Assembly: GCA_950295325.1 (NCBI GenBank) | Contig: OX485807.1 | Coordinates: 36,298,440-36,362,439 of the forward strand | DNA: 64,000 bases | From: Polytrichum commune | Lineage: Eukaryota > Streptophyta > Polytrichopsida > Polytrichales > Polytrichaceae | Direction: 5' to 3' | Shown here: positions 6,160-42,244 of the stretch, in pieces | How positions within the stretch are numbered: the first letter of the stretch is position 1 | How the letters are laid out: the number at the start of each line of letters is the position of its first letter | The notes under the pieces: generated by a model | Told to the model about the DNA's origin: nothing | Database searches by the model: none | What the model saw: the letters and a program-made list of their open reading frames with translations, nothing else | Program-made: the position numbers and the translations under genes

Positions 6160-6308
6160 GTTGACAGCAATTTCGAAACAAAACTGGATGTAGATCTGAC
6201 GCGACAGACAAAATGGTGAAGGCGAAAGAGCAAAAGAAGAAAAATAATGCAAGAGAAGAGCGGCAGTAATACAGAGCGATGTGTGTGAGACTTAAGAAGA
6301 CAAGCTTG

Positions 6309-9943: not shown

Positions 9944-12235
<2,292 letters not shown>

Positions 12236-12369
12236 AGTGTAAAAATTTTGTTAGAAATGTGTGCGAAGACAAGACGATATATGCGATGATGCGGAGAGGC
12301 AGAGGGGCAGAGAGAAGTGGAGTGGAGTGAAGAAAGAGCTCCTGGTCTGTCTGGGTGCCTCGTGCTGCT

Positions 12370-12465
12370 TTTCTATGCTCCACGTTCCATGTATAGGACC
12401 ATTGTGCTAATAACCAGGTTTTGGAGATAACTGGGTTTTCTCTTGGTTGTCACGAAGTGATTTCG
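12370..12465 (+). repeat. Direct repeat, copy 1, upstream of UMP-CMP kinase
   Basis: It contains the blocks ATGCTCCACGTTCCATGTA, CAGGTTTTGGAGATAACTGG and GTCACGAAGTGA. They recur in the same order at 13630-13722, about 1.26 kb away. No other copy was seen in the window. Confidence 0.7.
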
Positions 12466-13629
12466 AGGACACAGTATCGAGCTTAGGACCCCTTTAGGGC
12501 CACTCACACACGCGACTGAAGGCCCGTGACCATTGAAGGAAAAATAAATAAATTAGAACGTAAGTGTCTTTTACCCTAACATACGATGTTTGTTCATTGT
12601 CTCTTTTCCGTGTTCATATGGGCATGGGAGTTGGGGTGGCTTAATGCATATTTTCATAGGTGGACCGTCGTGACTATTGTAATATAGGATCTCTCATTGG
12701 TCAAAAAGGTCGAGACTGTCTAAGTTCACTTCATACTAGAAAGTGAAGACCTAAGGGCCCAAAAAATTATCATGCATCCAAAGTTTATATGGATTCTTAC
12801 ATGGTAACCCATAAATAATGTTTCATGATCTGCCAAAATTTGAGCTAGACTCACTTCCAAGAGGTACGCTTCATGCAAATTCCAGCAGACAATGTCCATT
12901 GTACGGCCTTTGGATGAGAATCAAGGGCTTTCATAATTACATGGTCATGGCCCTTAGATGGGGTCGAAGGGGGAGGGAATAACATGATGGAATAATTCTA
13001 TTGGCCAAGAGGTGTAAATTGGACCAAAGGCCTTTAGATAAGGGTTCAAGACCATGAAGAAGCAATGTCAGGTATCTCCACATGGCATCATTTTGGAAGA
13101 AAACACTAATGGTCCAAACCAAGACATGCACCTTAAAGGAGAGTTCATGTTTTGGAGAACCATGTTGGAATGTAAGGTCCAAGGGAGGGAGTGGTACAAG
13201 GGTTCAATATCCCTCAAATTGCTTCAAATTAGTCCCTATGTTCTTGGACTGTGGATTACCATCTAAAGCGCTTTTTATTTCCAGCTAGGACTAGACACAC
13301 CACCTTTTTTAGTTGGTCCCCCACCACTATTACCCAAGGTGAAAACTTAGTCAGATATATTCCAACCATTCTTTTTTTAAAAGATTATTTGATCTCAAAA
13401 TCAGTAATAGAGATCTCAAATTAGTCTAGGGAGTCTTGTTTGAGATGAATCAACCACAATCTATGGGGATCAAGTTTGAATTAGACCCCCTTTACCTCGG
13501 TAGCAATGATGCATTAATTATAGTAATTAGTGTGGGTTGCACTAAAATATTAGGGATTATATTGTGGGTGCGCACTATGACCATGTGCATTATTCAATAT
13601 TTGAGATGTGTGTTTTGGGTGTTACTTTT

Positions 13630-13722
13630 AAATGCTCCGAGTGCCATGTACAAGACATTGTGTCCCAGTACCTAGGTTTTGGAGATAACTGGATATTCGC
13701 TTTGAATGTCACCAAGTGACCT
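13630..13722 (+). repeat. Direct repeat, copy 2
   Basis: Matches 12370-12465: ATGCTCCGAGTGCCATGTA, TAGGTTTTGGAGATAACTGG and GTCACCAAGTGA. The pair could bound a decayed insertion or record a segmental duplication. No transposon ends are evident. Confidence 0.7.
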
Positions 13723-16700: not shown

Positions 16701-18993
16701 GCCATTCGCAAATAGTGTTTGTGACAATAAATACCATAAACGGTGTGGTGGACATGAGAAAACATAATGAAGAAGGTTACTCTCTTGTATAAGTGCACAT
16801 AACTTCCTTACATTTCCAAAGTAGTGAAGTGTTTTGGTGACTAACGTATTTGGGGGTTATTTTTCTTACTTGTTAAATATAACTACAAACGTGTCCGTTC
16901 AAGTTTACATGCACATCACGCATCCTCTTTGTGGCTCAAATCAATTGACAACCAATAGGTAATGATTTTTCCTCTGTTTTTAGTGTCCTGGTTTCCACAA
17001 CATTCTTAACCTTCATGTTTCCTCACTCTTTCTTGAATAAAAGAGATGTCATGTTTCATGGGAACCACAACTTAGGCTGTCATTTTTTAGAATCACAACA
17101 TGGGTTAAACATAGATGGCCTAATCTCCATCGGTGGGAGAAGTTAAAAGGGTTGTGCATATTAGATACATGTCATGCTACATGATTATGTGCAAATCGAA
17201 AGAGAGAAAGGACTCGTTGTTGAATTAAGTCAAGTGTAAACCCTTTGAAATACATAGAGAAAATTCACCCATAATTGAGAAAAATCACCCATAATTGCTA
17301 TGGTCTTTTTCAAAGAGGTGGTAACTTAGACAACCTTGTTGGCTGTATGTATAGCGACAAAATGAAATCATGAGAATATATTACTATCACAGGTGGGACC
17401 TTTAAACAATCGATTCCCAACTCGAATCACCTAGGCCTCAAAGGTTTACAAATTCTTGGACAATTGCCTTTGGAATTGTGCAGAATCATTTCCTTCATCG
17501 TGTGAAGGGTTTATACCAATAAGGGAACTTTGTGTTTATGCCTAAGTGGACTTCATCCCATTCTTCAAGCACTAGCACTAGCACTAGGTAAACATAAGTG
17601 CACGTTAAGGACTAAGCCCAACAACCTAACTTCTACGCCCAAAATGGGACCAAAGTTGGGGCACAATAATTCTATAAGAATTGTGGTTGTGGTTCATTTT
17701 GATTATAGGTAACATGATATAATTTCGGTTTAATGTTAAAATAATAAAAATATCAAGGTTGGGTCCTACAAAGTGATCAACAGTGAACCTCAATCATTTG
17801 CATGAACAAAGTGCTCAATAAGTAGACTTATTCTGTCATGAAACACGGATACTTCATATGCTACACGCATAAGGTAGGTTGGTGTTATTAAGTTCATTTT
17901 TCATGTTTTTCTGGCTTTTAGTGATTAAATTTATATAACGGAACTTGTGTTGCATTAGCAAATCTAAAATGAAGCATCTGCAAGATTTGGAATGGAAATT
18001 GGTCCTCCTCTGATTTAGCTCTGGTTATTGGAAGTGCATAATTGACAATTTTTGACTGAATGTACAGGTTCTCCCAATCGTGTTTAGTATTGGATGTGTA
18101 CTAGTTGATAAAATCTGAAGATGAATTCAATCTCTTTTGAACATGTGTCTTGATGGTGTTTGTTCTTTGATCCTCACCTGACCACAACCAATCAAATATA
18201 ATGTCTGATTAAGAAATGTGATCAAATTACACCCGCAAGATACCTTAACGATGCAACCTTCGAGCCCCACAATTTAAAGTGGGACAACCCACAACCTAAA
18301 CCAACAACATGATGTGTAAGCTTAAATTATCCAAGAAACCTGCTCCGCAAATCGAGATTCTACTCACAGGTAGCCTTTACAAAAGCATCTGGATACCCAG
18401 AACACCATCCATTCTACTGAAATGCTAGAATTGAAACCACCGTGTTGAATTCTCAGGCTATCAAATTTGGTTCAAATTACCTACTCTGGAAATAATCAGA
18501 GTGGACATATCATCTGGCTTGAATCACTTACATCATCAATCCTTGACGACAAATGTCACAACATCTACAAACCTGCTATACAAGAACATCATGAGTCTTT
18601 TGACCTAACTAAACCTTGACGTTATGAATGCATTAGTTGAGAACTCCAACCGTCTTGAAAAGTAGTTCTGAAATACTTTTTGTACAAAACAAGACTCAGT
18701 CTCTCTCTCTCGTTCGCCAAATGTACAAACTACACAACGACGATGTCCCAACGGAACTCGAACTCCTTGCGCACTGCTTCAAGAAACCCCTCCTTTTTCT
18801 TTCTTCAAGACAGTAATTAGCTATTAGTAGAAGAACGTGTATATGGCCCTTTTGCAACTTTTTGCCGACTTTGTGGTAGCAAGGTCAGCATTGAGAGAGT
18901 TGTCCAAGGCATACTTATATGTATGTACCTGTCAGAGCCTGCCTGCCTGAGAAAAGAAAAAGGATTAAATATCAGGGTTGCATGAAAACACAA

Positions 18994-21900
18994 CTAGAGG
19001 TGATGAGTCGAGGTTGACGTTGCTGAATTGGAAGGGGCTGCTTTCACAGGCTTCGAGTTTGAGTGCGAGGAAGAGGAGCTGCTTTGTTGTTGTCCAGAGG
19101 CGAGGGCCAGTGATGGCGGCGGTGATACAGGTTGAAACGTAGTGTTGCCAATCAGCCAGTAAAGGGCCCACTTCAAATTGCAAAGCGTGTATTTGAGCGC
19201 TTTCGTCCATTTCTCATGCCGGTTGAAGCTCTGGGTGATGGTAAAGCCGTCCACTTTATCATTCTCAATCCTGCATCCACAACAAGCACCTCAACAATAA
19301 TGGCAAGGGAGCGAACCCAGAAACAGGATTTTACATTTTTTGGCATAAGTGTATAATACATTCAATTGATTGCAGTACATTAGCAAGGAGGACCCCAATT
19401 GTGCATCAACAATTGCCAACAAATGGGGCCATGCTCACTTTGACAAAGACTCTTATTTCCCTGACAGTACCAGAAGTTGTTCCTCATGTATACCTCTCTT
19501 TGTACATGATTGCAAAGCTTGCATTAAACTTAAGATAAAGCAAAAGCCAGTAGAATTGAAACTTGAATCATATGAAATTCCTCCTCCATGTAGTAATCAA
19601 AAAGCTGATATGCTTTCAGTCTGTTCAGAGTTTTGTAAAGATATCCTGACACTCGTTATGAAAGTGAGTGTAAAGATATGTACCCTCGTATAATGGTATT
19701 GGAAGGTAGTACTGATTATGGTACAAGGACGAAAGAAAAGTGTCATCCTCTCCTAAAACGTCTCTTTTTCCAAGGTCATGTTGATCTCCTTTGGAATTTT
19801 GTGGATGGGTGCTCCTAAAGCTTTCAATCCAAAAAATAAAAAAATGTCCTCTCTAATAGTATATGGGTGGCTCACTATACTATTTATCAAATATTTCGGA
19901 AACACCACTGCTGAGCATGCTTTAAATCATCAAGGGTGTTCTTCAGTGCCTTGGTCCATTTTTCTGGGACATTTGGGAAACTCTGTGTGATTGGTAACCC
20001 CCCTACAAGGGTGTTCTCTATCCTGCAGTTGGAAGTAAGCAAAATGACGAGTTTTCAAAAAGAGAAATGGATGAAGAACAGAGTTGTGAGTGTTTCCTCA
20101 ATTACTCACTGCACTCAAACATCTAATACAATATTTGGATCAAATCCCAAAACACAATGAAGCAGACGTGTTTTGTTCTTTTTAAAACCCTTTGACATTG
20201 TTGTTGACTTCACAACTGTCTCTAGAATGCCAGAAGGCCAGGTCTGGGTCATGCATGGACAAATACCACAATACCTTATCAATTTCAGAACAAAATATTT
20301 ATTTTCTTGAGTGACGGTACCACATGTCACCCCATGGTTGATTGAAACATAATGAAAAAATTGGCATGGAAAAAAATCAAATTCAGCAAGCAGAGTGCCT
20401 AAACTGATTCCGTACCAAGCAACAGAAGCAGTCGTACTGTCATTGAACTTTTCACCTTAATAAACTGGTGCCTATGTCAGCTATTGAACCAAAACATTCA
20501 GTAGTGAAATTACTTACTTATATGGCAGCTGAAAACATTTCTCCGGTGGATGATTGGCTGCCTTGTCCTTGGCATTTGCAAACTCAGCAAACTCCTTCAG
20601 ACACGCAAGGAAGAAGGTCATGGCCTTGTCATACCTTGAACTCCAGAATAGGTTCACTGGCCCAAAACTACACACAGCAAAGAAAATGGATATATCCACA
20701 TCAGTATAATGTCTGAACAGACAGAATGTACCCAACTACATTGGTTGAGATTCTAATCAGATGTGTCACACCATCACCGACTGCATTTTTTTGTTCAGAG
20801 TGGCTGCAAGAGAAGTCAAAGGTGATCCAAATCCATAATTGCAGTAAACTGTCTTGAGACCTTCCTCAAAATCCATCTAGTAAGAACATATTCTTTTAGT
20901 TCCACCTTCCAAATAATAATCACAGCATGCTGCATCAAAAAGCTGTGCAGGAAGTTTCAAGTATATTCACAAATGGATATTGATCTTACAGCTCATATGT
21001 GTTCTTGTTGTCGGCAATCTTTGGGTAGCTTCCCATGGGAAGTATCCGGTACCTGTCACAAAGTGGGCAAGGTTTAAGCAAGAAACTGAAAAATGGCAAA
21101 GATTTTAACTAGAAGCAGGTTCAAGCATGCAAAAATCCAACAAAAACACATGATCTGATCAAGGAGACCACAGGACATGAAGTAACATTAAGACAATGCC
21201 ACCTAGAATTTCAAAATCATACGCAAAGACAGTGGAAATGAAGAGCATACGAGAAGTTGAGGCGACAATATTGAGCCATTGTGTGGAGGAGTAAGCAAGC
21301 CTGGCCCCAAGCTGCATTGATTTCATCCCATTCCACCTGTACAATCATAGTAATAACAATCTAAATCAGTAATAGTCAACAATAGGAAAAACACATGTAC
21401 CCTAAAGCCAACAACGTACATGATGCTCAATGGCACTTTCAGGAGATCAAAAACTGCTTGAGAATATCAAGTGGACACTAACATGTGTGATTTAAATATA
21501 TTATAGCACAGAACCAACATGCGTGAGCAAATAAATCCTGAAAAGAGGTTAGTTTAAATTTACATATTTCCTCCAAATAGTATATAAAAGAAAATGCAAC
21601 GACCCATCACAATTTTGCATTTATCTTGATAATCTAATTGTGTACTGTTTAACAGCAGACCTTGAATAAGACAGGTCAGAACATGGATAGAAGTAAATTA
21701 CTACATGATGTTGATATCATCTTTGATAAAATACAGACAATGCATCTTACAGGTACATTAGGAAGCCTCCCCAAGCGGAAGTTATTGATGGTTCCGAAGT
21801 CCCCATCATGCCATATGTGGAAAGCATCATTTAGCACGTTAGTTCTCTTCAACATCTCCAACTGTGATTGAGCAACCTCGATTTTGGCCAGCACACCATC

Positions 21901-24900
21901 CCTATCCTCCTGTATGCAACATTCAAGACAATTAAATTGTCAGAAATGAACCAATTAATTCTCTTCCTTCCAATTTCAGTGGAGAATTGCTTGGAGTATA
22001 AATAGGTAAGTGAAACTCCAAACTGTTACAGAAGTGAGGACTGGCGCTGACACAAAAAAACCAAGAGACAACCTTGTGCTCTACATAATCACAATTGGAT
22101 CCATATCCTATCACTACATCTTTGGTTTCCATATTTCGGCAATATGACACTAGTTGTGAGAGTCACAATACTTGGTCCCATTCCTTTGCAGTATCAATGC
22201 TACAATTTTCTAGTGCAATTAACTACAAGGCTTCAATCCATGATGAGTCTTTTGCACTTTCTCTTTAGAGGATAACAACCCAACTTTCTAAGAACAACTC
22301 AATATCTGGAACATAGATATGATGATTATTTACACAAGAATTATGGTACTGTAGGTAACCTGGTGGACAGTTAGATCAAACTTGAAGACATTACAATCGT
22401 GCCAGAACCTGAAAATATCCACAACACACATCCATAAATACAAGCAGCAATGTACAAGGGGTCATATTATACACCTGCGGTTCTAGAAATTTAATGATAG
22501 AAAGATCAAGACTTGCCAACTCCCACCCTATACTGGTCTTAAAAAGCAAAAAGTGGCATAGGCTACTTCACTTAAATATGCTTCTCTCCTGGTTTACATA
22601 TTTGTGCTTGCTCTCTCGACCAGTCACCTAGTGCCATTGTTTATAGAAGAATTGGAATAGAACGTGATCCGATTATTTGACAGCAGTTACCAAGTCAGCA
22701 GAAGACAAAAGCTGATGACTAAACTACAACAGAAGAAAAGCTCACATCTTCATCCTCTATCTCAGCATGACTTTTGGTCAGGGATTGGTTATATTGCATA
22801 CAACACCTTCTGCGATCAGTGAGTTTGTGGTGCATACTTGGGGGTAATGTGGAGATTTGAACAAAGAACATTCTACATCGGCACGCCAAGTGGTGCTAAA
22901 ATGAGTTTGGCCCTTGATGAACCACATAGGTTTCTCTTCATTCAAATCCAAACACTACCTCGAAGAGGGCACCACAGGTTGAAAGATTTAATTGTATGCA
23001 AAACAACCAGTGGAAAATCATAGGGGACCAACTCCAAACTAAAAGCCCCATTCAATTAAGGTTAACTCTAAAAGCATCAAATATTATCAGGACATAGTTA
23101 TGAGAAACAACAGGAAAGGACACATACTTCTCCTCCAGCTCTTGAAAGTCTTTGGTCTTAATTTCCATCTCATGCAGCTGACCTACTACTTCCTCCTTTT
23201 GCCTCTCAACCTCCTTGATAGCTGCTTTTAATTTCTTTTCTTCTTCGTCCGCCTTCTCAGCACACCCAAAGACAGATCAGAATAAACATAGCAGGTGATG
23301 CATCCTCCAGCATTCCTAGGTTGATTGCAGTAACCAGAAAGTACATCAACCAACAAATACTTGTTCACAACTGGAAGCGATGAGGATACAGCCACACAAG
23401 AATATTCAGAAGATGAGCACTCTGGAAGAAAGGAATGACACAATGAACTAAAACAAAACATACCGACTATCCTGTTTTATTTAACTCGCAAAACATGTTC
23501 AGAACCTGTGAGGGTGTCTTTTAAGCTATGCTCATGCCCAGCCAGACAAAAGGGGATGCAAGAAAAGAAACACTATGCAAACCTTTGATTTCTCCTTGGC
23601 AAACTCTTCTTCACTGAGAGCTTCTGTTGATTTCTTTTCAAGCTGATTGAGACAGGATTGGTAAGCTTTGATGTCATTGTTCACATCATCCATTTGCTTA
23701 TCAAGTTCCTCGGACAGAGCACGCATGCATTCCAAACAAAGTGGTTGATCCACCTGATGACAACAAACCTTTAAGGTTAGATGCATCAATTTCTACCTTA
23801 ACCAAAATCATCTTAACAATTCAGTTATCCTTTAACTCAATGGGACTTTTTGTCGGGAGTTGGGCCCCTATGATTTTCTATTGGTTGTTTTGTATACAAA
23901 ATCATTCATTTCTTTCCACGTGTCGTGCATAATAGGAGGTATTGTTTAAAATTGAAAGAAGAGCAACCTATTTCAGTTTATTGAGGGCCAAACTCGTTTT
24001 AGCATCTCTTGGCATGCCAAACTGAGTTTGACTGTCAACAAACCATTATAAAAAGTTTGTGGTTCAAACCACCACACTATCTCCAAGCATGCACCAAAAA
24101 CTTACCAAACATGGAAGGTCTTGTATGCAAAGCAACAACCCCCAACCAAAAGTCATGGTTGAGTGAGGTAGAGGACAAACTCTGATGAGTACAGAAAAAT
24201 AAGCAGATCAGGACCTGTGTTTGGTTTGATGCAATCTCAAACACTCGTGTAAGCACATGGACGGTGGCATTGAAGCTTGCATTATTGGTGTGTTGGCCAG
24301 TCTGGCCTCCCCCTCCTCCTCCACCAGCCCCACCTGCATGGCTCATGCCTCCTCCCTCTACAGGAACTTCAACTTTGTACATTGATGCTGCTGCTGAAGG
24401 CAAGACGACAAATGACTCGTCCATAGCCCTTCCCCCATGAGACTCATTCACATTTGCTGCTGGCTGATGATGATGGGCACCTGCACTTGGAGTTGCCCCT
24501 GAGGTTGTACAACAAGAACATGTCAGGAAAAAACAAACCATGACCTTGAAAACAACTTACCGACACGATACACTGCAATAAGAATATGACAAATGCAATC
24601 TCTGTATACAGACATTAGCTCCCCTTAAATTGCCCATGTCAACCAGAGGCAAATTGGATAAGTCTAGATTAAAGCTTACCAGGAAAACAGAACATGACCT
24701 TGACAATAACTTACAAACACCATATATTGCAATGAGAATTTGACAATACAATCTCCTTATACAAAAATAAGGAGATTTCTCTCCTCAAATTGCTACTATC
24801 AACCAGAGGCACACTGGACAAGTCTAGATTAAACACTGTCAGGAAAAACAGAATATGACCTTGACAACAACTTCAGACACAATACATCACAATAAGAATA

Positions 24901-27105
24901 CGACAATGTCATCTCTACATAAAGAAATAAGCTCCCCTTATTGCAATTGTCAACCAGAGGCAAATTGGACAAGACTAAATTACAGCTTGAACACCACTCA
25001 AATATGGTGGCAACAAGGATATAGCAAGAAGACTATCACCTCCAACATGCATGGCAAGAAGTGGCGACCCTCACCACACTGGGAACTAAATCAACTGCAG
25101 CCAAATGACAATCAACTCTACATGCAAGAACCCAAAAAAACTCAATTTAAGCTTGTTACTTTGCACTAAAAAAAATCTAAGCTGCAGATGCATGGTGCTC
25201 TGAGACTGGAAACAATACAATATTTGTAGGAGGTAAGAGTGTCTCCAACAATCACTGTAAAAATATTCTCTCCCACCCACAAAACAAAGCCCAAGTGATA
25301 TCCAAATCTTTATTGCCCACACATTATTGAGGGAGAGGGAACCCACTAAACCCCTACCCACACCCTCAAAAATCAAGTGACCAAGGTTGAAAGGTTGTCT
25401 CTCTCTCACTCAATAACGGGTGGCCAATAAAGTTTTTAAGATACATATACATGGACTTTATGGGTGAGATGAGCATTCGGAATGGCCCCCTAAAACTGCA
25501 AAAGCTGATTATCAAGAGAATTATTTAGGGTGACCATAGGAGTTGTTCTAAGAATAGATACCTGGAGTTGGGTAGTGCAACCCTCCAGACCTAGGTCGAG
25601 GAGGAGGGAATCCTGGTTTCACTCCCCCTTGCTTCGGTAAGACCACAAAAGAATTCTCCATCCGGCTCCCTGCAAGCACACTTCCATGCACCGACACCTG
25701 CACCCCTGAAACCACACTACCAAATATTGGTTTTAAAATATATTCATAAATCTTGTGGTTATGGAATAAATGTTTGTCAAAAACAATTCATAATCTGCAA
25801 TTATTGACTTCTCCATGTGGGCAAGTGTTAGATGAGTCCAACCTTTGAGGGGAAACATACAACTAAGATTATCTGTATCCAAGTGCAAACACAGTAGACA
25901 TAACATCCTAAGTCGAGAACACAATTGATGTTGATTTACAGTATAAGTGCCCTCTTGTGTTACGGTATGAAGCTTGATCTGGCGTTTTGCTTGACAATAC
26001 CTGTTCCTTATCACCATACAAAAGAACCCTAAGGTATGTGGGTCTAATGTAGTCACTCATCTTTATTGGACACCAATATTTTGAGTGGTATATTGCAAGA
26101 CTGGTAGATAAGAACAAACCCCATAGAGAGATGTGTTGAATTGAGATTGGACTATGTACTCAGAATATACCCATGAACATTCTAGGTTCAATTGATAACA
26201 TGACAATTGAGAGGGCCTACGTGATCATTTAAAGAACCTGAGAATCTTCACTTTGAACTTCTACAACATATGCGTCTCAACCCCAATGATTTTGAAACTT
26301 TAAATGACAAAGTAAATTGCATGATCCCAGAATGAGACAATTCAACACTTCGGCCCAATTGTGGAGTTGGAAGTGCCTACAATAGGGCCACATGCTTTGG
26401 TACTTAGGGCATGAGATGTGGCAACATTAGAAACACAAGCCTGATTGAGCTGCTTCCAAGAGGAGATGTGTTATGTTAAGATTGGATTATGTGCTCGGAA
26501 TATACATACCATTTTAGGTTCAATTGATAATGGGAGGGCCTATGTGGTCATTATAAGAGACTGAGAATCTTCACTTTGACTTTCTATAACACATGCGTCT
26601 CAACCCCAATTGCGCATGCCTTGGTACTTGAGGGATGAGATGTGGCAAAATTAGAAACACAAACCTGATCGAGCTGCTTCCATGGAAAGATGAGTTACGT
26701 TGAGGTTGAGATTGGACAATGTGCTCGGAATATACATACGGTTCTAGGTTCAAAAAATAACTTCAAAATTGGGAGGGCCTATGTGATCATTTAAAGAGAA
26801 CAAGAATCTTCACTTTGACCTCCTCTAATATTTGCGTCTTAACTCCAATTCTAAGGGAACTTGAAATGACAAATTCAATTTATTGGGCGATCCACAATTG
26901 CTAACCGGATAAGACTATTCCCAGGTGTGTGGCAAAAGTGAAAACGCAAACCTGATCGAGCTGGCTCCATCATGATTCGTTCTGCATAGGTATCTGCTCC
27001 GGTGACAATAAAAGGGTGCTTGCACATTTGACACTTCCATCTCGGCAGAGTGGGATCGACTCCCACCTGTACCCTTCCACTCCTCGCAACCAATTCCTCC
27101 TTCAT
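18994..27105 (-). CDS. ATG6: Beclin-1 / ATG6 / VPS30, 11 exons, 554 aa
   Basis: Scaffold subunit of class III PI3-kinase (VPS34) complexes, needed for autophagosome nucleation and endosomal sorting. Exons in transcript order: 27105-26952, 25705-25562, 24498-24215, 23753-23583, 23255-23128, 22408-22360, 21909-21751, 21336-21251, 21052-20990, 20667-20518, 19270-18994. Phases agree; total 1665 nt. The upstream codon pair GTG AAA makes ATG at 27105 ([10 protein letters not shown]) the start. Residues 25-28 are the plant CxxC (CQMC). MENSFVVLP and MDESFVVLP follow, then a Gly-rich linker and the BH3-like [15 protein letters not shown] coiled coil spans about 195-330 ([19 protein letters not shown]). 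The C-terminal beta-alpha repeat domain has [31 protein letters not shown] and [19 protein letters not shown]. The Ser/Gln/Pro-rich tail is lineage-variable. The exon 5 acceptor could be 3 nt further in. The promoter is shared by inverted duplication with PEX1. Confidence 0.95.
22795..23075 (-). mobile_element. Repeat family B (MITE-like), inverted copy in ATG6 intron 5
   Basis: The reverse complement is collinear with 23815-24175, 57285-57660 and 61257-61602. Shared blocks include GGAGTTGGTCCCCTATGATT, TGGTTGTTTTGCATACAA, AGGGCCAAACTCATTTTAGC and CTTGGCGTGCC. It has no coding capacity. Confidence 0.7.
23815..24175 (+). mobile_element. Repeat family B (MITE-like) in ATG6 intron 3
   Basis: Left end GTTATCCTTTAACTCAATGG, then GGACTTTTTGTCGGGAGTTGG-type sequence. 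Internal blocks are TATGATTTTCTATTGGTTG, TGAGGGCCAAACTCGTTTT and CTTGGCATGCCAAACTGAG. The right end contains AACCAAAAGTCATGGTTGA, an imperfect inverse of the left end. It fills most of intron 3 (23754-24214) and reaches within 50 bp of exon 3. Confidence 0.7.
24520..25000. repeat. Three-copy tandem repeat, period about 160 bp, in ATG6 intron 2
   Basis: Copies begin near 24522, 24679 and 24838, each with CAGGAAAA.ACAGAA.ATGACC-like sequence. Each then carries CCTTGA.AA.AACTT, CAATAAGAAT..GACAA, ATCTC and a CAACCAGAGGCA(A/C)A(T/C)TGGA block. The array starts about 20 bp from exon 3, so it occupies the region expected to hold the branch point and pyrimidine tract. Confidence 0.75.
26030..26860 (+). 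repeat. Family A repeats with duplicated exon 1/intron 1 junctions in ATG6 intron 1
   Basis: Three family A-derived segments: GAGATTGGACTATGTACTC at about 26143, GATTGGATTATGTGCTCGG at about 26480 and GATTGGACAATGTGCTCGG at about 26710. They alternate with copies of a 27-bp piece of the true ATG6 exon 1 donor region. The piece (AAACACAAACCTGATCGAG and following bases) lies at 26431-26457 and 26655-26681; the real junction is at 26942-26968. The whole looks like tandem duplication of a unit of about 225 bp after insertion of family A. Confidence 0.7.
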
Positions 27106-27189
27106 TTTCACCCTCCAACTAGTCCAGCGACCACCAATTCATACACCGGCCGGCCTCAATTCATAACCTCGTAAACTCCAAATATGTAC

Positions 27190-27708
27190 TCGGAAGGCTT
27201 CCACACAAGGCAATTTGTCATGTCAACCAATCTGGCAAACGCAAAACCTTAACAACACGGAAGTAGCTCTCCTAGCGTTAATTCCAAGCGTAGAATGTAA
27301 AAGCGGATTACACCACAGGCGCAAAGTCGAAGACATCCAGCAGCATCATTGGAATTGAGTGGGTGGAATTGAGCCTTCTGAATTTGAGCAAAAATGGGTG
27401 ATGAGATTATGAAGGCCGGAAATTTCAGCACGTAGACAACCATGTAAGCTACGCAGACAAGAAAATGCACATATCCTGACAGAGAGAGCGCAAAGCTCCG
27501 TATCACATGCACATCAACAGGAGCGTCTCTGTCTGTCCCTTTGACGCTCTCTCGCCGTTCCTGCTAACTGATTCTTATATATCAAGTCATCGGGTAGCTT
27601 TGAGAAGTGCAATTTACGAGCTACCGCGGCAGAATTCTTTTGATTCCCGCTATCTGTGATTCCCGCAGGTTGGGAGGAAGGCTAGAGGCAAACCCTAAAA
27701 CAGAGACT
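27190..27708 (-). promoter_or_regulatory. ATG6 arm of the shared inverted promoter/leader repeat
   Basis: Read on the minus strand, this segment matches 31019-31560 read on the plus strand, by eye about four-fifths identical. Shared blocks, in order: CTCTGTTTTAGGG, AATCACAGAT, CCGATGACTTGATA, TTGATGTGCATGTGA, GGAGCTTTGCGCT, TCAGGATATGTGCATTTT, TTCATAATCTCATC, GCTGGATGTCTTCGACTTTG and GGTGTAATCCGCTTTTACA. It ends about 85 bp before the ATG6 start codon. It includes one copy of the unit that is triplicated near PEX1 and an AAACCCTAA telo-box at its outer edge. Confidence 0.85.
27574..27583 (-). promoter_or_regulatory. Probable TATA box of ATG6
   Basis: The minus strand reads GATATATAAG, about 470 bp before the ATG. 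The equivalent place in the PEX1 arm reads GATACATAAG (31136-31145). Conservation between the arms supports this as the core promoter; there are no transcript data. Confidence 0.5.
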
Positions 27709-29431
27709 GAAGTTGCCAGGTTCCCTCGCACAAAACTTCAGCTCAAGCTCAAGCTTGCAAGTTTGTTGGTGGGCCAAGGTAGTCCAAAACTTACAAGGAG
27801 TGGAGCCCTTACATGTGCCAAAGATGGTGGAGCTTTGGTTCCTCCTTATTTTGGCTTAATTTTCACAAAGAAAGAATATCGGCTTATTTAACGAATGTGA
27901 ATTTGAGCTTGTTGGTCTGACCTTGTTCTAGAGTGTCCTTGGTACAAGGTTGGGTATATTGCTTATCTTGCGATGGGTGGACCCTAATTGTAGGAGATAG
28001 AGGGGACAAAGTTGTTGGTCTTACAGTGTTTATTGGTTATGTCTATAGGACAGAGACTATGCATCAACTTCTTTGTTTCAAGAGTAAATTTCCTAACCAC
28101 TTTGCGTTTACACTTGGACATTACTTGATCCTGCTATTTTTTGTCCAGTTTATTTAATGTGGATGTTAGCTATAGTTTATATATATAGTTAACCATTGTT
28201 GCTCCCTAAAAATGTATTGAAAAAATCTAGTTAAGTATAGTTATTTTGGAAGTTGTTAATTATTTATTTTAAAATTTTCGGGTGATAAATGAGTAGCTTC
28301 AGTCCTTGACCGCATTTGAGAAGAAGGTGCACAAAATCCAAGAAAGGTTTGGTTAGAGGTATAGTAAATAGCCATGGACTGGAATAAGCAAAGTGACAAC
28401 TAGAGTTGTAGTCTTTCACAAGAAAGGACAAAGCCTCACGGTTCTACCATTTTTTTATTATCGAGTTTGTGTTCATTGAGAACAGGATACGTGAGGTATT
28501 TAATGGTTATTTGGTGTATGCTTCGCATGGATTTTTTTATTAACGTAGTTTCTATTTCAGATTAGGCAATCCTGGATTCAAAGGAAAAATATCATATTTC
28601 CTCATAACAGTTTTTGAAAATTTTAAATGCAATTTCCAACAAAAAATAGTTTCCCTAAAAAAGTATTTTAATTAGTGTTGAAGTGGTAAATGTACTATGG
28701 TATACAAATAATGCTATACTGACGCATTGGTTAGTAGACGTAATATCAACCCTCAACATTATCCAACATCAAAGTCTTGCCCAATCAATGTGTTCTGTAC
28801 GAAGATAATAGAATAATAAAATAAGCAACTCAACATTAGCCCCCTACATACTATACGTCATATGATGATGGTAAATGACATATTTTTCTTATAGTTTGAG
28901 GGCATCATCACACGAAAGCTATTAGGCCATGTTTTTGAGAATCCTTGAATTCTCATTGGTTGAGTGTGTCATGGGCCCCCGCTTTAGGTTTACACGAGGG
29001 TAGTTTTGGACCACATCCCATAACATGCATCTTCAGCAGATGAAAAATCTACATGGAATTCGACATGGTAGGTATGGATAATGTTGACTGGGATTGTAGG
29101 GAATTTTTCCGGGAATCTGAATGTGGGGAATATCCGAGAATACTACATGGAATAAAGTCAGTCCCACATAACATTGTTATGGATATGAATAACGTTATGG
29201 AAGTTTTTGCCTTTTTATTTTATTTTCTTGTCTCATAAGGAAAAACTATTCCTTGCATAACATATCCTTTATTATAATCAATATGAATAGCTAATGAAGG
29301 TTATCCTGCGACTAAATGACATGCCTTGTCATGAAGTGATAGAGGAATATTTGTAAGACTTGGAATTCATATATGGCAACAAAGTGATGAGTGGGTTGAT
29401 GCACTTGAAAAATCCTCTAGTGGGTTGTTGT

Positions 29432-29805
29432 ACACCATTTATGGTATTTAGTGTCACGTCCACTACTTGTCAACAAAACAATGTTTGTCAAGAGAAGTAA
29501 TTATATGACATGCATAATTATTTACACTATGACATTTAGAGTAACATGTTGGGTGCTAGAGACAATGTTTTTGTTGCATTTTAATATGCAAGAAGGTAAT
29601 GAGACCACATCAATTACAACTTCCAAAAACTGACGAGGCAAAGACGAAGCAAACATGAAGGTATTATTAAACATGCGAACAACAAGTATCACGAGGTTCA
29701 CAATAATTGTCAACTTTGTTGGCAATTAGGGTAACCTAGGATATGCCTCATTACATGTTAAGTAACACTATTAGTCGGTGACACTAAATATCATAAAATG
29801 GTGTA
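29432..29805. mobile_element. Candidate MITE with inverted ends of about 27 bp
   Basis: The left end starts ACACCATTTATGGTATTTAG and the reverse complement of the right end starts ACACCATTTTATGATATTTA; both run on into GTGTCAC. The 374-bp element has no coding frame. A similar end block occurs near 16722-16748. The target-site duplication was not resolved. Confidence 0.55.
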
Positions 29806-30408
29806 GTCTTCTTTGCACCTAAAAGTTGTAGATTGCAAGTTGGCATCCTAGCAAGTATAAATATACCTCATGCCAATCCAATTACCTTTGTCAACTATAC
29901 GAGTTCTTACAATTGTTGTCAAATTTGGTGCAATGGAAGTCATTTTGCTTTGCATAAAACTAGAAATTGGTTCTTTGCTACATCACACACAATAATACAT
30001 TCACAAGCCTTTTGTAACTTTCTTCAAAGTTTCTCTTAAAAGAGGTATTCCGTCCATTGTGGATGCATTCTCCTATATCACCATGATCGTAGCATCATGT
30101 AAAATACCTATAAAGTCTATCGACGTAAGATTTGTCTCCTTCCCAATTATGTCATTACATATGCATGTTTCAAAATATTAATCACATATGAACCTTGACA
30201 CACACATGGATCCTATCACATGTGCATATTAATCACCACTATTATATGAACAATTGGGCTAAAACAATGTCATATTACAAACGATAACAATGTAGTTGTA
30301 ATATGAAGGTACAATATTAACACTAGAAAGTTTGGTCGACGGAAAATGCGTTGTATAGTTGGGCTGTTGCATAAATCCAATATTATAATATGGAGGGTAG
30401 ACATGTAA

Positions 30409-30825
30409 GAGCGTCCGCACCAGACCGTGCATGGGGCATGCCAACGCCAAAAACGAGGCATCCCGGGTTCTTAGGTGACGGTACCGGCAGAAATTGAGCC
30501 CCACCAGTGTTCGGTCCCTCATAATTTAGAACTGGTCTGGGTATAGTAAAGGCCTTCCCCCGCCATAAATGATTCATATAACGGCCCTCCTCCAGCCCGC
30601 CAAGAGATTACTTTAATATCAAATACTCCAATATCCTACTTTATCTCATGTCAGATAATATGTGTCGTTGTCTTATTGATTGCTTCCTAATTATACCGAG
30701 GGTATGCCTAGGCTTTGGTGGGCTTTGACTGAAGATGAGCTGCCCCGCCCAAGATGGAGGGCTCCCCAAAGGTATAAAATATTATATATTCTATTTGACG
30801 TTTACCTGATCTGGTGGGGATGCTC
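30409..30825. mobile_element. PIF/Harbinger-like MITE with TAA target duplication
   Basis: The left end is GAGCGTCCGCACCAGACC; the reverse complement of the right end is GAGCATCCCCACCAGATC. These are 18-bp inverted repeats with three mismatches. TAA flanks the element on both sides (30406-30408 and 30826-30828), the 3-bp target typical of PIF/Harbinger elements. The 417-bp body is non-coding and more GC-rich than its surroundings. Confidence 0.75.
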
Positions 30826-31018
30826 TAAGAAGGGAGAGGGCTTGCGCCTTGCTGCCCCCTGCCCGATAGAAAAACATCCTGGATGATATTCGTTCACGTG
30901 GATGAAACCATCGCACATGCACCGCGGATGAAAGCTCCCATCTAGGATGGGGCACCCGGGGCCTGCTGGGTTCCCAGTTCCGTTCCCCGTGTTCTCATCG
31001 TAGTTACCCTTCGGCCTT

Positions 31019-31560
31019 AAGTCTCTGTTTTAGGGTGTGAGGCCACTGGCCTTCCTCGCACTCTGCAGGAATCACAGATGGCGAAAAGAATTTTGCTCGT
31101 GAATTGCACATCTGATGAAAGCCACCCGATGACTTGATACATAAGAATCAGTCAGCGGGAACAGCGAGAGGGCGTCAATGTGGCAGACAGACACGCTTGT
31201 GTTGATGTGCATGTGACACGGAGCTTTGCGCTTTCTATGTCAGGATATGTGCATTTTCGTGGCAGCGTATCTTACATGGTTTGTCCACATGCTGAATTTG
31301 TCGACGTTCATAATCTCATCGCCCGATTTTTTCAAATTTAGAAGGATAGGAACTGCCTTCATCGCCACTTCGGTCTCGACATACTTAATTCCGGTGGAGC
31401 TGCTGGATGTCTTCGACTTTGAGCCTATGGTGTAATCCGCTTTTACACTCTACACTTGCAATTACGCTAGGAGAGTTACTGCCGTATTTTTAAACTCTAG
31501 GATTTTGCTAGATTGCGTGACACAAACTGGACGACATAACCTTTGCCGTAGGTGGAAGCA
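31019..31560 (+). promoter_or_regulatory. PEX1 arm of the shared inverted promoter/leader repeat
   Basis: The plus strand matches the minus strand of 27190-27708 from CTCTGTTTTAGGG (near 31022) through the TATA-like GATACATAAG (31136-31145), ATGTGCATGTGA (31205-31216) and the TCTTCGACTTTGAGCC block (31411 onward) into the first 198-bp unit. The TATA-to-ATG distance is about 890 bp here against 470 bp for ATG6. Two extra 198-bp units account for most of the difference. Confidence 0.85.
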
Positions 31561-32012
31561 TTCCTTTATGGACTTAGGGTGTTCAATGCTGCATGCTTGG
31601 AGCTGAGCTTCGAGCTTTGAGCTTCTGTTTTAATCTGCTTTTACACTCTACACTTACAAATACGCTAGGAGAACTACTGACCTTGGTGTCAAGGTTTAGG
31701 GTTTGCCAGATTGCTTGGCATAATCTGGGCGACACGGCAATCGCCGTATGAGGAAGCGTTCCTTTAACGGACTTAGGGTGTTCAATGCTGTGTACTTGGA
31801 ATTGAGCTTCGACTTTGAGCTTCTAGTGTAATCCTCTGTTACACTCTACACTTGCATTTAAGCTAGGGGGATTACTGCCGTTATAAGGGTTTAGGGTTTA
31901 CCAGATTGCTTGCCACAATCTGATTCTGGACGACATGACAATTGCCATCTGTGGAAGCCTTCCTTTATGGACTTAGGGTGTTCAATGCTGTATACTTGGA
32001 ATTTAGCTTTCT
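31411..32012 (+). repeat. Tandem triplication, period 198-200 bp, in the PEX1 leader
   Basis: A TTTTACACTCTACACTT block begins at 31441, 31639 and (as TGTTACACTC) 31837, exactly 198 bp apart. GTGTTCAATGCTG recurs at about 31580, 31779 and 31979. Units also share TTTAGGGTTT.CCAGATTGC, a telo-box, and GTGGAAGC.TTCCTTTATGG. The last copy ends about 25 bp before the PEX1 ATG. The ATG6 arm has a single partial unit. Confidence 0.9.
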
Positions 32013-32035
32013 CATTGTGACCACCAGAGAGGACA

Positions 32036-35000
32036 ATGGAGGTGGAAGTGGAAACGGTTGGGAAGCAGAATTGCTATGTATCTCTGCCAGATTGGCTACT
32101 GGAAGCATTTCTGTCGGAGCAGGAGCTACCCTCATTTCCCATTGTTCTGGAGCTTCACGTTCCCACAGAGAAGATGCAGCAGGAGGCTCAAGGTGGCCCA
32201 TGGTTTGTTGCATGGGATGGCTCTGTGTCAAGGTCAACTAACATTGAGGTTGCAAAGAAATTGGCAGATTGTATGGGCTTACCAGCCGGTGCACGTGTTG
32301 TGGTGAGAGGCAGGTCTGGGGTCCTTAAAGCTGACTCAATTGCCATTGAGCCTGCGAGCCCAGATGACTGGGAGATGGTGGAGCTGAATGCTGCATTTCT
32401 TGAGGAACAGTTGATGACACAGGTAGGGGTGTTGTTCGAAGGCCAACAGTTTCCGGTGTGGATTGAAAGTGGAAGTGTATTGCTGCTGAAAGCTGTCTCC
32501 ACAAAGCCAAGCAAGCTGGTAAGATTAGGGCCTGGAGCAGAGCTTGTTGTTGCTCCGAAAAAGCGAGTGGTTGCAGCACCTTCAACAAATGATATTGAAG
32601 CCTCTGTAGCTGATTGTAAAGCAAATGATCTGGATATGAGCAAGAAGACCTTACTGGGGGCTGGACATGCTTGGCTCCGAGTTCAAGAGTTGGATTCAGC
32701 TTTTGCTCAGCCTGTTAAATTTGAAAGATTGGTCTGTTCTAGTCTACCAACCACAGCAATCTTTGTGTGTCTTTTGACTGCGAAATTATTGGGACTTGAA
32801 CATGGACAACTGGTTGTGTTGTTCAAATTTGCTTCTGTATCGTCCGAAGAAACTGGTGGAATTGATGCTGCCGCTGGACATGCTAAGAATAATCCACAAG
32901 TACAAAATTTCAAGAGGAGGGCAATTGTAAAAGTTTGTGTCACAGAAGCTGCAAGAAGGGGTCACGGAATGCTGGCACACCCTCTTCAGAACTACTTGGG
33001 ACTTGATTGTCATTCCTGTATTGGAATCCAGGCATGCAATACTAAGAATGCGGCACTCCCTGCCATTCTCGAATTGACTCCGACGGTGTTACGTGAGATG
33101 AAAGAAGTCGAACATGGGGATACAGCTGATGCATATCCTGCAAAGAAACCAGATCTTCGTGCGGGTGGACAGCTTGGGAATAGTTCAGGTAGATGGAGTA
33201 ATCACATAGAACTATTTGCATTAGCAGGAGCAGGTCCGCCAAGTCAAACAAAAACTTTGAAAATAAGTGATGTTCCTAAAGAAAGTGTGAGGAAATTGCT
33301 GCAAGGTTGGGTGGCAGCGCAAAGGGCTGCTTTGCTTCTTGCAGGTTGTGAATCTGAGAAATATGTTCCTGTCACAGAAGAGACTGTTGTCCATATCAGA
33401 ATTAATTTGCAATCTGCTAGGAATTCTCAGGAGACTGGCTCCTTGAAAAGTTCTTCAATTCGGAGCTGTAAAGATATGTTCTTTTTAGTTCGTTTCCCTG
33501 GTTGCCAAGAAGTTGATTTGCCAAAGACAATGGGATCACCACAGCTGCCTACAGAGAACAGATTGAAGGCCTACTTTTTATTGGACGAACAGATTCTTGC
33601 AGAAGGAGTCAAACCTCCCAGCAAAGAGTCACCAATATCAGCATCTGGTGGTGATGGTTTTCTGTCAGTTGGGATCGGTGGTTTTGAAATGCTTTCATGT
33701 CAGATGAGGTCTTACTGTTGTGATTTGAAGGAGCCAGATGTTGCTTTGCCAATTCGGTTAGGTAACCCGGTTTTTGAGGCCCTCTTGAGGTTGAGATTGC
33801 TACTATTCCCAGCCATTCGAAAGACGCAGAAGAAATTGGAAATTGCACATCCTGGAGGTGTCCTTCTGTATGGACCACCTGCATGTGGGAAAACTCGGAT
33901 GGCTTTAATGCTGGCACAGGAGCTGCAATCAGACAGTCAGGTGTTGGCTCATAGGGTATTTGTGAGCTGCAATGAACTGGTTGGAGAACAGGCAGAGGCT
34001 ATCCAAGGAGTTCTAAATGACGCTCTGTCTGAAGCCCTGGACCACTCACCATCCTTGATAATATTGGATGACCTTGATTCCTTGTTTCCAAAAGACACAG
34101 ACGGTCCAGAATCAGCACCGGCAGTTATGGCACTAGCTGAGTACCTTTGTGACCTTATGGACTGTTATCAGGGAGGGGACCAAGAACAGGCGGTCGCATT
34201 TCTTGCTACTGCAAGATCGCCAATGGCACTTCCAGATTTGTTCTGCTTCTCAGGCAGGTATGATTATCATGTGGAGTTGCCAACACCTGCAGCATTGGAA
34301 AGGGTGTCAATCTTGGAGCAAGCTGTAGCTGCACGTGGATTCAAATTTTCCAAGTCGGCTGCATCTAAAGTAGCAATGGACCTTGATGGGGCTAATGCAA
34401 GTGATCTGGACATGCTGGTGGACAGAGCTGTCCATGCAGCTGCAGCTCGTTTTCTTTGTCCAACATCAGTTGTGCCTACTTTGGCAGATGTAACTGATGT
34501 GAAAGCTGTAGAGGAAGTACTTTCGTCAATGAGAAAGCAGAACTTTGAATTAAGCTTGCTAGATTTCAACATAGCTAAACACAGCTATGTCCCTGCAGCC
34601 ATGCAAGGCATCACAACTGGTGGTGCCAGTGGAATATCAGGATGGGATGATGTAGGTGGTCTTGTGGAGACACGTCAGGCTCTGCAAGAGATACTAGAAT
34701 TGCCGGTGAAGTATGATGATATTTTTGCAGGATCTCCATTAAGAATGCGCTCAGGTGTGCTCCTGTACGGTCCTCCTGGCTGTGGCAAAACATACATAGT
34801 GGCTGCTGCTGCTGCAGCATGCTCGCTTCGATTCGTTTCTGTCAAAGGCCCTGAATTGCTGAACAAGTACATTGGAGCCTCAGAGCAAGCTGTTCGTGAT
34901 GTGTTTGCAAAGGCAGCTGCTGCCGCTCCAGCCTTGCTTTTCTTTGATGAATTTGACGCGATTGCTCCACAGCGTGGTCACGATAACACAGGTGTCACAG

Positions 35001-35530
35001 ATCGTGTTGTCAATCAATTGCTGACGGAACTTGATGGCGTGGAGGCTCTTAATGGTATATTTGTATTTGCAGCCACCAGTCGGCCAGATTTATTGGATGC
35101 AGCATTGCTTCGGCCTGGTCGGCTGGATCGAATGCTATTGTGTGACTTCCCATCTACTTCAGAGCGAAGTGAGATACTACAAGTGCTCTCTAAAAAGCTA
35201 CCCCTTGCAGAAGATGTGGACTTGGACAGTGTGGCAGCATTGACAGAGGGGTTTAGTGCTGCTGATTTGCAAGCAGTTTGTTCAGATGCACAGCTGGAGT
35301 CAGTGCATAGCTTCTTGGCCAACAAGGAGACAATGACATCATTCGAGTGGGAAGCAAAACCAGTAATTGCAATGGACCAGTTGCGAAGGGCAGCTTTAAG
35401 TGCACGACCTTCAGTACCTGAAACGGAGAGACGGCGTTTGAATGATATTTATGCTTCCTTTATGGGTTCAAGGAGAACAACCTCCACAAAGACACAAGAA
35501 CGAGAAGGAAAGAGAGCCACTTTGGCTTAA
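32036..35530 (+). CDS. PEX1: Peroxisome biogenesis AAA ATPase PEX1, intronless, 1164 aa
   Basis: With PEX6 it forms the hexameric motor that extracts ubiquitinated PEX5 from the peroxisome membrane. Residues 1-180 form the PEX1 N-terminal double-psi/beta-barrel region (SLPDWLLEAFLSEQ). AAA domain D1 has Walker A GPPACGKT (613-620) and Walker B LIILDDLDSL (674-683), with Asp-Asp as usual in PEX1 D1. D2 has GPPGCGKT (912-919), Walker B FFDEFD with Asp-Glu at 971-972, and the second region of homology RPDLLDAALLRPGRLDR (1016-1032). Length is close to plant PEX1 (about 1130). A TGA lies in frame 18 nt before the ATG, fixing the start. One frame codes the whole protein, whereas flowering-plant PEX1 genes have many introns. 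No poly(A) tract or flanking duplication marks a recent retrocopy. Family D lies about 0.8 kb downstream. Confidence 0.96.
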   Translation: MEVEVETVGKQNCYVSLPDWLLEAFLSEQELPSFPIVLELHVPTEKMQQEAQGGPWFVAWDGSVSRSTNIEVAKKLADCMGLPAGARVVVRGRSGVLKADSIAIEPASPDDWEMVELNAAFLEEQLMTQVGVLFEGQQFPVWIESGSVLLLKAVSTKPSKLVRLGPGAELVVAPKKRVVAAPSTNDIEASVADCKANDLDMSKKTLLGAGHAWLRVQELDSAFAQPVKFERLVCSSLPTTAIFVCLLTAKLLGLEHGQLVVLFKFASVSSEETGGIDAAAGHAKNNPQVQNFKRRAIVKVCVTEAARRGHGMLAHPLQNYLGLDCHSCIGIQACNTKNAALPAILELTPTVLREMKEVEHGDTADAYPAKKPDLRAGGQLGNSSGRWSNHIELFALAGAGPPSQTKTLKISDVPKESVRKLLQGWVAAQRAALLLAGCESEKYVPVTEETVVHIRINLQSARNSQETGSLKSSSIRSCKDMFFLVRFPGCQEVDLPKTMGSPQLPTENRLKAYFLLDEQILAEGVKPPSKESPISASGGDGFLSVGIGGFEMLSCQMRSYCCDLKEPDVALPIRLGNPVFEALLRLRLLLFPAIRKTQKKLEIAHPGGVLLYGPPACGKTRMALMLAQELQSDSQVLAHRVFVSCNELVGEQAEAIQGVLNDALSEALDHSPSLIILDDLDSLFPKDTDGPESAPAVMALAEYLCDLMDCYQGGDQEQAVAFLATARSPMALPDLFCFSGRYDYHVELPTPAALERVSILEQAVAARGFKFSKSAASKVAMDLDGANASDLDMLVDRAVHAAAARFLCPTSVVPTLADVTDVKAVEEVLSSMRKQNFELSLLDFNIAKHSYVPAAMQGITTGGASGISGWDDVGGLVETRQALQEILELPVKYDDIFAGSPLRMRSGVLLYGPPGCGKTYIVAAAAAACSLRFVSVKGPELLNKYIGASEQAVRDVFAKAAAAAPALLFFDEFDAIAPQRGHDNTGVTDRVVNQLLTELDGVEALNGIFVFAATSRPDLLDAALLRPGRLDRMLLCDFPSTSERSEILQVLSKKLPLAEDVDLDSVAALTEGFSAADLQAVCSDAQLESVHSFLANKETMTSFEWEAKPVIAMDQLRRAALSARPSVPETERRRLNDIYASFMGSRRTTSTKTQEREGKRATLA

Positions 35531-38379: not shown

Positions 38380-39860
38380 AGGAAGACCATCTATATCAAA
38401 TAATATACACTATTTGCGAAGATTCTCATCTTGTGTACTTAAAAATAATGGTCAACTCTAGCTCTCTAGGTTTTGATGTCATGGTCTATTTTGGCAGACA
38501 TCCTACATCGCGCTTTGCTCACTAGCTCCTCGTATAAATCAGGGGGAAGTTCATCCAACCACCCAAGGAAATGAAATGCCGCAATCCTGCACAAGAAGAA
38601 ACCACTCAGACATGACACCCTTCAAATCACCTCTCCCCTTGGTGGATAGTCCATCAGCACGGTATTTCCATCAAAATAAAAATCTAGACGTCACACATCT
38701 GAGCTCTCATCTTGAAATTATCCACACAGCCACAAGGCTTCAGAATAGCGTATATCAGGTCATATTTTAGACCCTTTCATCATTGAGCTCAGCATATTGC
38801 AAATTCATAAGACAATCTACAGGCTATCTTCATAGAGACATGAACCACAATGGGATAAGTCCAGAAATATATGACGATCCTATGATTATCTCCATCAATT
38901 TGAAAAAGGTGCAACTCTGGTGCACAATTTCTACCTGTGGAGGAGAACTTCCTATCACGCCATCTCATACTATACTGGCATTAGATGTCCGGCTTGTAAT
39001 CAGTACTTTTGACCCACACATCTAAAGTATTCAGAACAATGATCAATACAATATCCATCAGTGTTAAGACCCTTAATGCAAATCTTCAGTCCACCATTCT
39101 GGACTCACATCTGCTCTATCAGATAGTTATATACACTGTGATATGTTCCACATGAGCCTACTCTAAGGAAACATTTGATCACTTCACAGCTTCAATTCTC
39201 AGCTCTCACCAGTTTATCTTCCACAAAAGCTAAATAGCTTCAGAATAGCGTATATTGGATCACAACGGATCCATTCATCATTGAGCTCAACAACCCATCT
39301 ACGTTTAATATCACATCAACTGACCAAAGAACATGATGCTCTCCAGTCAACTCGCCACTGTTCAACTATTTGAACAAATCAATGTTCAAAGCGAAACACC
39401 TAAGTACAAATAGTGAAACACAACAGTGTACGCATAATCGAAGTGTCTCACGGGCTTCTACAGAATGTCTCCGCCAATTTGAAAACGGCGCAACTGATGT
39501 GCACAATTTGTACCTATGAGGGAAGAATGAATTTTGCACCATCTCATACTAAACTGGAACGAAAGTCTCCAGCCTGTAATCAGTATGCTGGTGCCAGTAG
39601 GGGAAAAAAAGTGAACCGTACAAAACAGAGCACACTCGCAGGACAAGTGTGAAGAAACCAGTTCAAGCAGGTTTACTATTTCCGCCAGGAAAACCACATA
39701 TCGACTCAAGGCCCTACAAGGCTGTAATCAAATCCTAAACCCCTAAACCCATACTCAGATTCTTGAACATAGCCCTCATCTGTAAGTTCTCCACAAAGCA
39801 TGTGTGCTTCAGAATAGCGTATATCGAGTCCACATCGGACTCTTTCATCATCGAGCTTAA
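38380..39860 (+). repeat. Family D tandem-like array downstream of TypA
   Basis: CTTCAGAATAGCGTATAT occurs at 38738, 39238 and 39807. Each copy is preceded by a CCACA block and followed by a GACTC/TTTCATCAT.GAGCT block. The GTGCAACT..(G)TGCACAATTT block occurs at about 38905 and 39485, and each is followed by CCATCTCATACTA and CTGTAATCAGTA. Unit spacing is 500-580 bp. The array runs to within about 100 bp of the TypA stop codon, so it may contribute to its 3' untranslated region. Confidence 0.75.
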
Positions 39861-41979: not shown

Positions 41980-42244
41980 CTCTACACTCTCATCTCTGAA
42001 CTCTCCAACCCTCACCTGCCCGCTCCCTTCGAGGCTCAAAAGCCTCTGACCTAATGTTGAGCAACCCTAACACATCTCTTCGTGAAGGTAAAACGTTGAA
42101 GAGAATTCAGAAGGACGCGAAGCTCCGGGTCTCCAAGGTCGGAAACCTCGCCTAAAGGAGCTTCCGAGTCTGATTCGCAACGGAATCGAATCGAGAAGCA
42201 ATGTCCATGAGTGGCATCGGCTCCGAGCACCACCCTGAGCTCCA

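Follow-up and report, generated by a model that had tools for sequence, protein, structure and literature searches.

Loci formed by inverted duplication that give rise to hairpin RNA have inverted arms at close range, and retrogenes that have gained a promoter combine an unbroken coding frame with adjacent duplicated upstream DNA. Both features are present in a 64,000 bp stretch of the Polytrichum commune genome (GCA_950295325.1, contig OX485807.1, positions 36,298,440 to 36,362,439; hereafter the window, in whose own coordinates all positions are given), where the DNA upstream of ATG6 on the minus strand is mirrored upstream of PEX1 on the plus strand. An earlier note, made from the sequence alone, had described this mirrored upstream DNA, and the observation is confirmed here. 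The locus differs from hairpin RNA loci in the orientation of its arms, which face outward, so that each mRNA would carry one arm as leader in the same sense and neither a hairpin nor mutual antisense would arise from the arms; a hairpin would form only if a transcript crossed the spacer between them. It differs from a retrogene in that no parent of PEX1 was found among the matches listed, and in that either gene may have been the donor.

The closest likeness is to local inverted segmental duplications that include regulatory DNA, in which two paralogous inverted upstream segments, one per gene, diverge after copying. Promoter duplications are discussed, and two mutually inverted human segmental duplications aligned, in the available excerpt of PMC13333887. 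The segment in P. commune is different in being short, apparently non-coding and placed before two unrelated genes rather than before two copies of one. As in a bidirectional promoter, the two genes are transcribed away from each other. Bidirectional pairs are defined, in the available excerpt of PMC2670823, by start sites under 1,000 bp apart, whereas each gene here has its own copy and the arms are separated by 3,303 bp, which speaks against membership of that class. Titles and abstract openings retrieved for inverted or duplicated promoters, ATG6 and PEX1 contain no description of this locus; a literature search for MpATG6 in Marchantia polymorpha returned nothing, and the excerpts available for ATG6 in Physcomitrium give no ATG6 locus. 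Events of this kind are known, and the ATG6/PEX1 arms are an uncommon example.

Inverted arms upstream of ATG6 and PEX1

In a pairwise alignment, the reverse complement of 27192-27712 is collinear with 31016-31564 over 568 columns, of which 430 are identical and 66 contain gaps, giving an identity of 85.7% over the 502 ungapped columns. BLASTN reports 77% for the same pair over 525 columns, gaps counted. None of 200 mononucleotide shuffles scored above 43, against 590 for the actual alignment, and identity far above background thus bears out the proposal that about 520 bp upstream of the two genes are collinear. The long shared block quoted previously is also present, GCTGGATGTCTTCGACTTTG being the same in both arms. 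The arms are inverted and face outward, and the measured 3,303 bp between them agrees with the spacing of about 3.3 kb given before. Features of the locus are listed in Table 1.

Table 1. Features of the ATG6/PEX1 locus in window coordinates
Feature	Position	Strand	Remarks
ATG6 exon 1	26952..27105	-	51 codons and 1 base, donor at 26951; open frame from 27105, putative N-terminus resembling those of plant ATG6
ATG6 upstream arm	27192..27712	-	From the alignment; carries one shortened unit of ~198 bp at its 3' end
Short upstream frame ATGTGCATGTGA, ATG6 arm	27503..27514	-	Start at 27514
TATA-like box TATATAAG, ATG6 arm	27574..27581	-	Read 27581-27574
Spacer	27713..31015		Dispersed-sequence matches at 28029-28460, 28899-29114, 29450-29807 and 30406-30829
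MITE-like element (miniature inverted-repeat transposable element)	30406..30829	+	Inverted ends; genome search, best 40 of 5395 first-look candidates scored
PEX1 upstream arm	31016..31564	+	From the alignment; collinear with the ATG6 arm
Matching box TACATAAG, PEX1 arm	31138..31145	+	Weaker TATA
Short upstream frame ATGTGCATGTGA, PEX1 arm	31205..31216	+	
Three tandem copies of the 3' part of the arm	31411..32009	+	Period ~198 bp; unit 1 lies inside the arm; 26 bp separate the end of the last unit from the PEX1 start codon
PEX1 open reading frame	32036..35530	+	Intronless, 1164 aa; PEX-1N domain and two AAA stretches (Pfam)

The ATG6 arm terminates 86 bp ahead of the ATG6 start codon, and homology on the PEX1 side terminates 26 bp ahead of the PEX1 start codon, after the tandem units. 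No homology was detected in the next 101 bp beyond the upstream end of the arms (p 0.99). Between the arms and the start codons there is only a 14-base match (p 0.085), with no continuing homology. A larger palindrome that includes the gene bodies was rejected by an inverted comparison of 10000-27800 with 30900-55000 (E up to 0.01), in which the matches were the arms themselves, the ATG6 unit against PEX1 units 2 and 3 (two matches) and one match of 48 bp.

Searches of 26900-32100 against Rfam gave no family at E up to 1. A protein-coding origin of the arms was considered and rejected after a scan of three frames, none of which has a significant Pfam match (best E 0.53, far below its cut-off). 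Because neither search produced a significant match, the arms would appear to be non-coding upstream DNA.

Copy number and genome background

Searches of the whole 408-Mb genome with each arm in turn gave no locus other than this one. Two diagnostic blocks of 28 and 32 bases, allowing up to 3 mismatches, were likewise found only here, and reversed-pattern controls gave 0 matches. The genome DNA search skips very common words and scores the best candidates only, and copy numbers taken from it are lower bounds. The counter-case considered in the earlier note, that the arms belong to a high-copy repeat, is not borne out by these searches within that bound, and holds instead for parts of the spacer.

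The background was sampled in 20 pieces of 10 kb, taken at round coordinates from the seven largest contigs, which measure 42-78 Mb and together hold 406 of the 408 Mb. Inverted matches of at least 300 bp with E up to 1e-10 were present in 6 of the 20, five of them self-palindromic fold-backs and one a separated pair, and this lone separated pair is a high-copy repeat (2254 candidates). A comparable inverted pair (at least 300 bp) restricted to its own locality was found in 0/20 pieces. Direct local repeats are frequent, at least one being present in 16 of the sampled pieces. Two other separated inverted pairs occur in the window, 900-1199 with 2245-2530 and 22753-23067 with 23823-24175, and both come from repeats that recur within it.

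Probable origin by local inverted duplication

The homology, the inverted orientation and the lack of a further copy in the searches made point to a single event, and we consider it probable that one local inverted duplication put the same upstream region before both genes and that transposons later widened the locus. Approximately 0.5 to 1 kb upstream of one gene, probably including the region of the tandem units, would have been copied once, locally and in inverted orientation, before the other gene. The copies have diverged evenly, to a Kimura two-parameter (K2P) distance of about 0.16, with 37 transitions and 35 transversions between them. The duplication is old.

Dispersed sequence accounts for at least about 1,430 of the 3,303 bp of spacer. 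The segments 28899-29114 and 29450-29807 match many places in the genome (best 40 of 2842 candidates scored), and 28029-28460 matches one further place among the matches listed, beside a copy of the MITE. Two of the 20 sampled pieces also contain matches to the spacer part 27713-28460. Among the matches listed, copies of the MITE-like element are 86-93% identical to it, mostly 91-93%. The element thus tends to resemble its copies more than one arm resembles the other, which fits an insertion later than the duplication. Transposon copies inserted between the arms would thus have widened the gap, and the arms may once have been closer together.

Upstream signals and signs of constraint

Since the arms end 26 or 86 bp from a start codon, the promoter or leader of each gene most likely lies at least partly within its arm. 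The earlier note had proposed one duplicated promoter and leader; the inverted duplication is well supported, while the role as promoter and leader is plausible from position. The minimal upstream frame said to be common to both arms is indeed shared: ATGTGCATGTGA occurs exactly twice in the window, once per arm, and two occurrences were seen in 0/100 shuffles. Both arms also have a TATA-like box, as described, but the boxes are similar rather than identical, differing by one base (TATATAAG at ATG6, TACATAAG at PEX1). In the 28-base block around them this is the sole substitution, and it falls in the TATA core of the PEX1 box. Only ATGTGCATGTGA and ATGACTTGA are frames common whole to both arms; longer upstream frames shift between the arms and their ends are not conserved.

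Substitutions between the arms are evenly spread (variance test p 0.45), and the longest identical run, of 23 bases, is not above expectation. Upstream ATGs, counted from assumed transcription starts ~30 bp past the TATA-like boxes, are at the shuffled level on both sides (10 versus 10.0 for ATG6, 17 versus 15.7 for PEX1). Splice sites were scored with rough weights. The PEX1 arm has a donor-like site at 31279 that is as strong as the donor of ATG6 exon 1 (7.1 against 7.0), which makes a spliced PEX1 leader possible. This site has no counterpart among the listed donors of the ATG6 arm, and no pair of donor and acceptor for a 5' leader intron is convincingly common to both arms.

Several points weigh against the derivation of the arms as two diverging copies of one promoter and leader. 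The copy number of the arms is a lower bound set by the search method, and 'promoter' is a putative designation based on position. Undepleted upstream ATGs would be odd for a long unspliced leader, and the actual leaders may be shorter or spliced. A gap-free block of 164 columns that spans the TATA-like box and ATGTGCATGTGA is longer than expected (Monte Carlo p 0.04, tested after the block had been noticed) and could be a marginal hint of constraint on the part from the TATA box to the upstream open reading frame (uORF).

Tandem units on the PEX1 side

The ~198-bp unit is present three times on the PEX1 side and once, shortened, on the ATG6 side. In its first half the ATG6 unit differs from unit 1 at 8/72 positions, from unit 2 at 17/72 and from unit 3 at 16/70, and in its second half from unit 2 at 12/61, from unit 3 at 14/62 and from unit 1 at 21/61. 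Fitting the ATG6 unit with two parents saves 9 mismatches (column permutation p 0.003). In the second half, the ATG6 unit is no nearer to units 2 and 3 than these are to each other. The pattern fits collapse of an array, and a fast-changing second half of unit 1 would look much alike. Divergence between units is 0.161-0.200, compared with 0.138 for the arms upstream of the units; in bootstrap replicates, arm divergence equals or exceeds unit divergence in a fraction of 0.03 for units 1 and 2, 0.24 for units 2 and 3, and 0.14 for units 1 and 3. These values weakly support a tandem array older than the inverted duplication.

The ATG6 and PEX1 genes

The name ATG6 is backed by an APG6 BARA domain above the cut-off. 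The APG6 profile picks out three exons, each of them at this locus (4 candidates scored). Matches to the APG6_N coiled coil occur in two exons, the stronger reaching 44.1 bits, just under the cut-off of 45. The segment 26952-27105, which has no Pfam match, we take to be exon 1 from its likeness to N-termini of plant ATG6 and from its open frame. The end of this exon with its splice donor is present three times in 26417-26975, once at the exon and twice within intron 1, the farthest copy having GC, not GT, at the donor. Local repeats in this segment have K2P distances of 0.15-0.17, like the arms. Three diverged tandem copies of about 155 bp each were also seen at 24530-24988 in the ATG6 gene region.

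Besides PEX1 itself, the 39 other genome matches of the PEX1 protein (best 40 of 100 candidates scored) cover the AAA part only, at 31-52% identity. The TypA/BipA (39958-42039) and RanBP1 (5479-6252) domains are each encoded by one uninterrupted frame, like PEX1, which makes three such frames in the window, and the lack of introns in PEX1 is therefore not by itself a sign of a retrocopy. Repeated segments of about 55-120 bp lie at 38698-39857, ahead of the 3' end of the TypA/BipA frame.

Alternative explanations

Because the PEX1 side has the fuller form, PEX1 is slightly favoured as the donor. On this account ATG6 would be the recipient: the upstream region of PEX1, tandem units included, would have been copied in inverted orientation before ATG6, where the units were then reduced to one. 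Such a course is possible, though doubtful. The greater divergence of the units suggests that the array may predate the duplication, and the ATG6 unit, with a first half like unit 1 and a second half like units 2 and 3, looks as a collapse would leave it, but the difference in age is slight by the bootstrap, fast change in unit 1 would also account for the second half, and collapse on the ATG6 side could have followed copying from either gene. An intronless PEX1 frame would suit ATG6 as donor, a point weakened by the intronless TypA/BipA and RanBP1 frames. In its stronger form, that PEX1 is a retrocopy inserted next to ATG6 which then acquired the ATG6 promoter as an inverted copy, this explanation is unlikely. 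The single uninterrupted frame of 1164 codons is as expected of a retrocopy, but no parent appears among the best 40 of 100 candidates, no obvious poly(A) tract directly follows the stop codon, other intronless frames exist in the window and copying could have gone either way. A parent gene may have been lost. The earlier note had suggested that an intronless PEX1 gained the ATG6 promoter, or the reverse; PEX1 is intronless, with no closer PEX1 copy among the matches listed, and either direction of copying is possible.

Long inverted arms around a 3.3-kb spacer resemble DNA transposons with long terminal inverted repeats, and the arms might belong to a low-copy mobile element, as its two ends or as separate copies of it, and abut the genes by chance. 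This is very unlikely given that no other copy was found in the genome (as a lower bound) and that the spacer contains several unrelated dispersed repeats. It was also proposed that the duplicated promoter and leader hold ATG6 and PEX1 under one programme, for example one that sets the initiation of autophagy against the export of the peroxisomal receptor. The genes are linked in the literature. According to the available part of a review, pexophagy is counteracted by the PEX1-PEX6-PEX26 ATPase, and human cells that lose this ATPase also lose peroxisomes (PMC7013971); the accessible text of a second article states that defects of Arabidopsis pex6-1 are partly restored by disabling ATG7, and that ATG6 is part of the VPS34 complex in plants (PMC6722239). 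The arms lie directly upstream of both start codons, ATGTGCATGTGA is retained in both, and the longest gap-free block covers it together with the TATA-like box. Against this, the substitutions reveal no constrained core, upstream ATGs are at shuffled levels, the TATA core differs between the arms, the longer upstream frames lose conservation before their ends, and the 12 identical bases of ATGTGCATGTGA are unsurprising at 86% identity. Common control is thus unsupported by the sequence and appears improbable. The more specific proposal, that one promoter with a uORF-bearing leader wires genes for autophagy initiation and the peroxisomal exportomer to the same transcriptional or translational signal, would be quite unlikely; if true, opposing sides of peroxisome turnover would answer one signal in this lineage. 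With a local inverted duplication as the preferred explanation, shared regulation may have existed when the duplication arose, and the present sequence gives no clear sign that any has been retained. Both arms may have been kept for function, but nothing observed requires it.

Significance of the locus

At the ATG6/PEX1 locus, and apparently nowhere else, two genes that are unrelated but connected in function share upstream DNA, which makes it a clean case. Should both arms drive transcription, the locus would offer a natural test of whether copying a promoter is enough by itself to couple genes of autophagy and of the peroxisome, and relatives of P. commune would date it. If they do not, the locus shows that collinear blocks upstream of genes can survive as neutral remnants of a local duplication.

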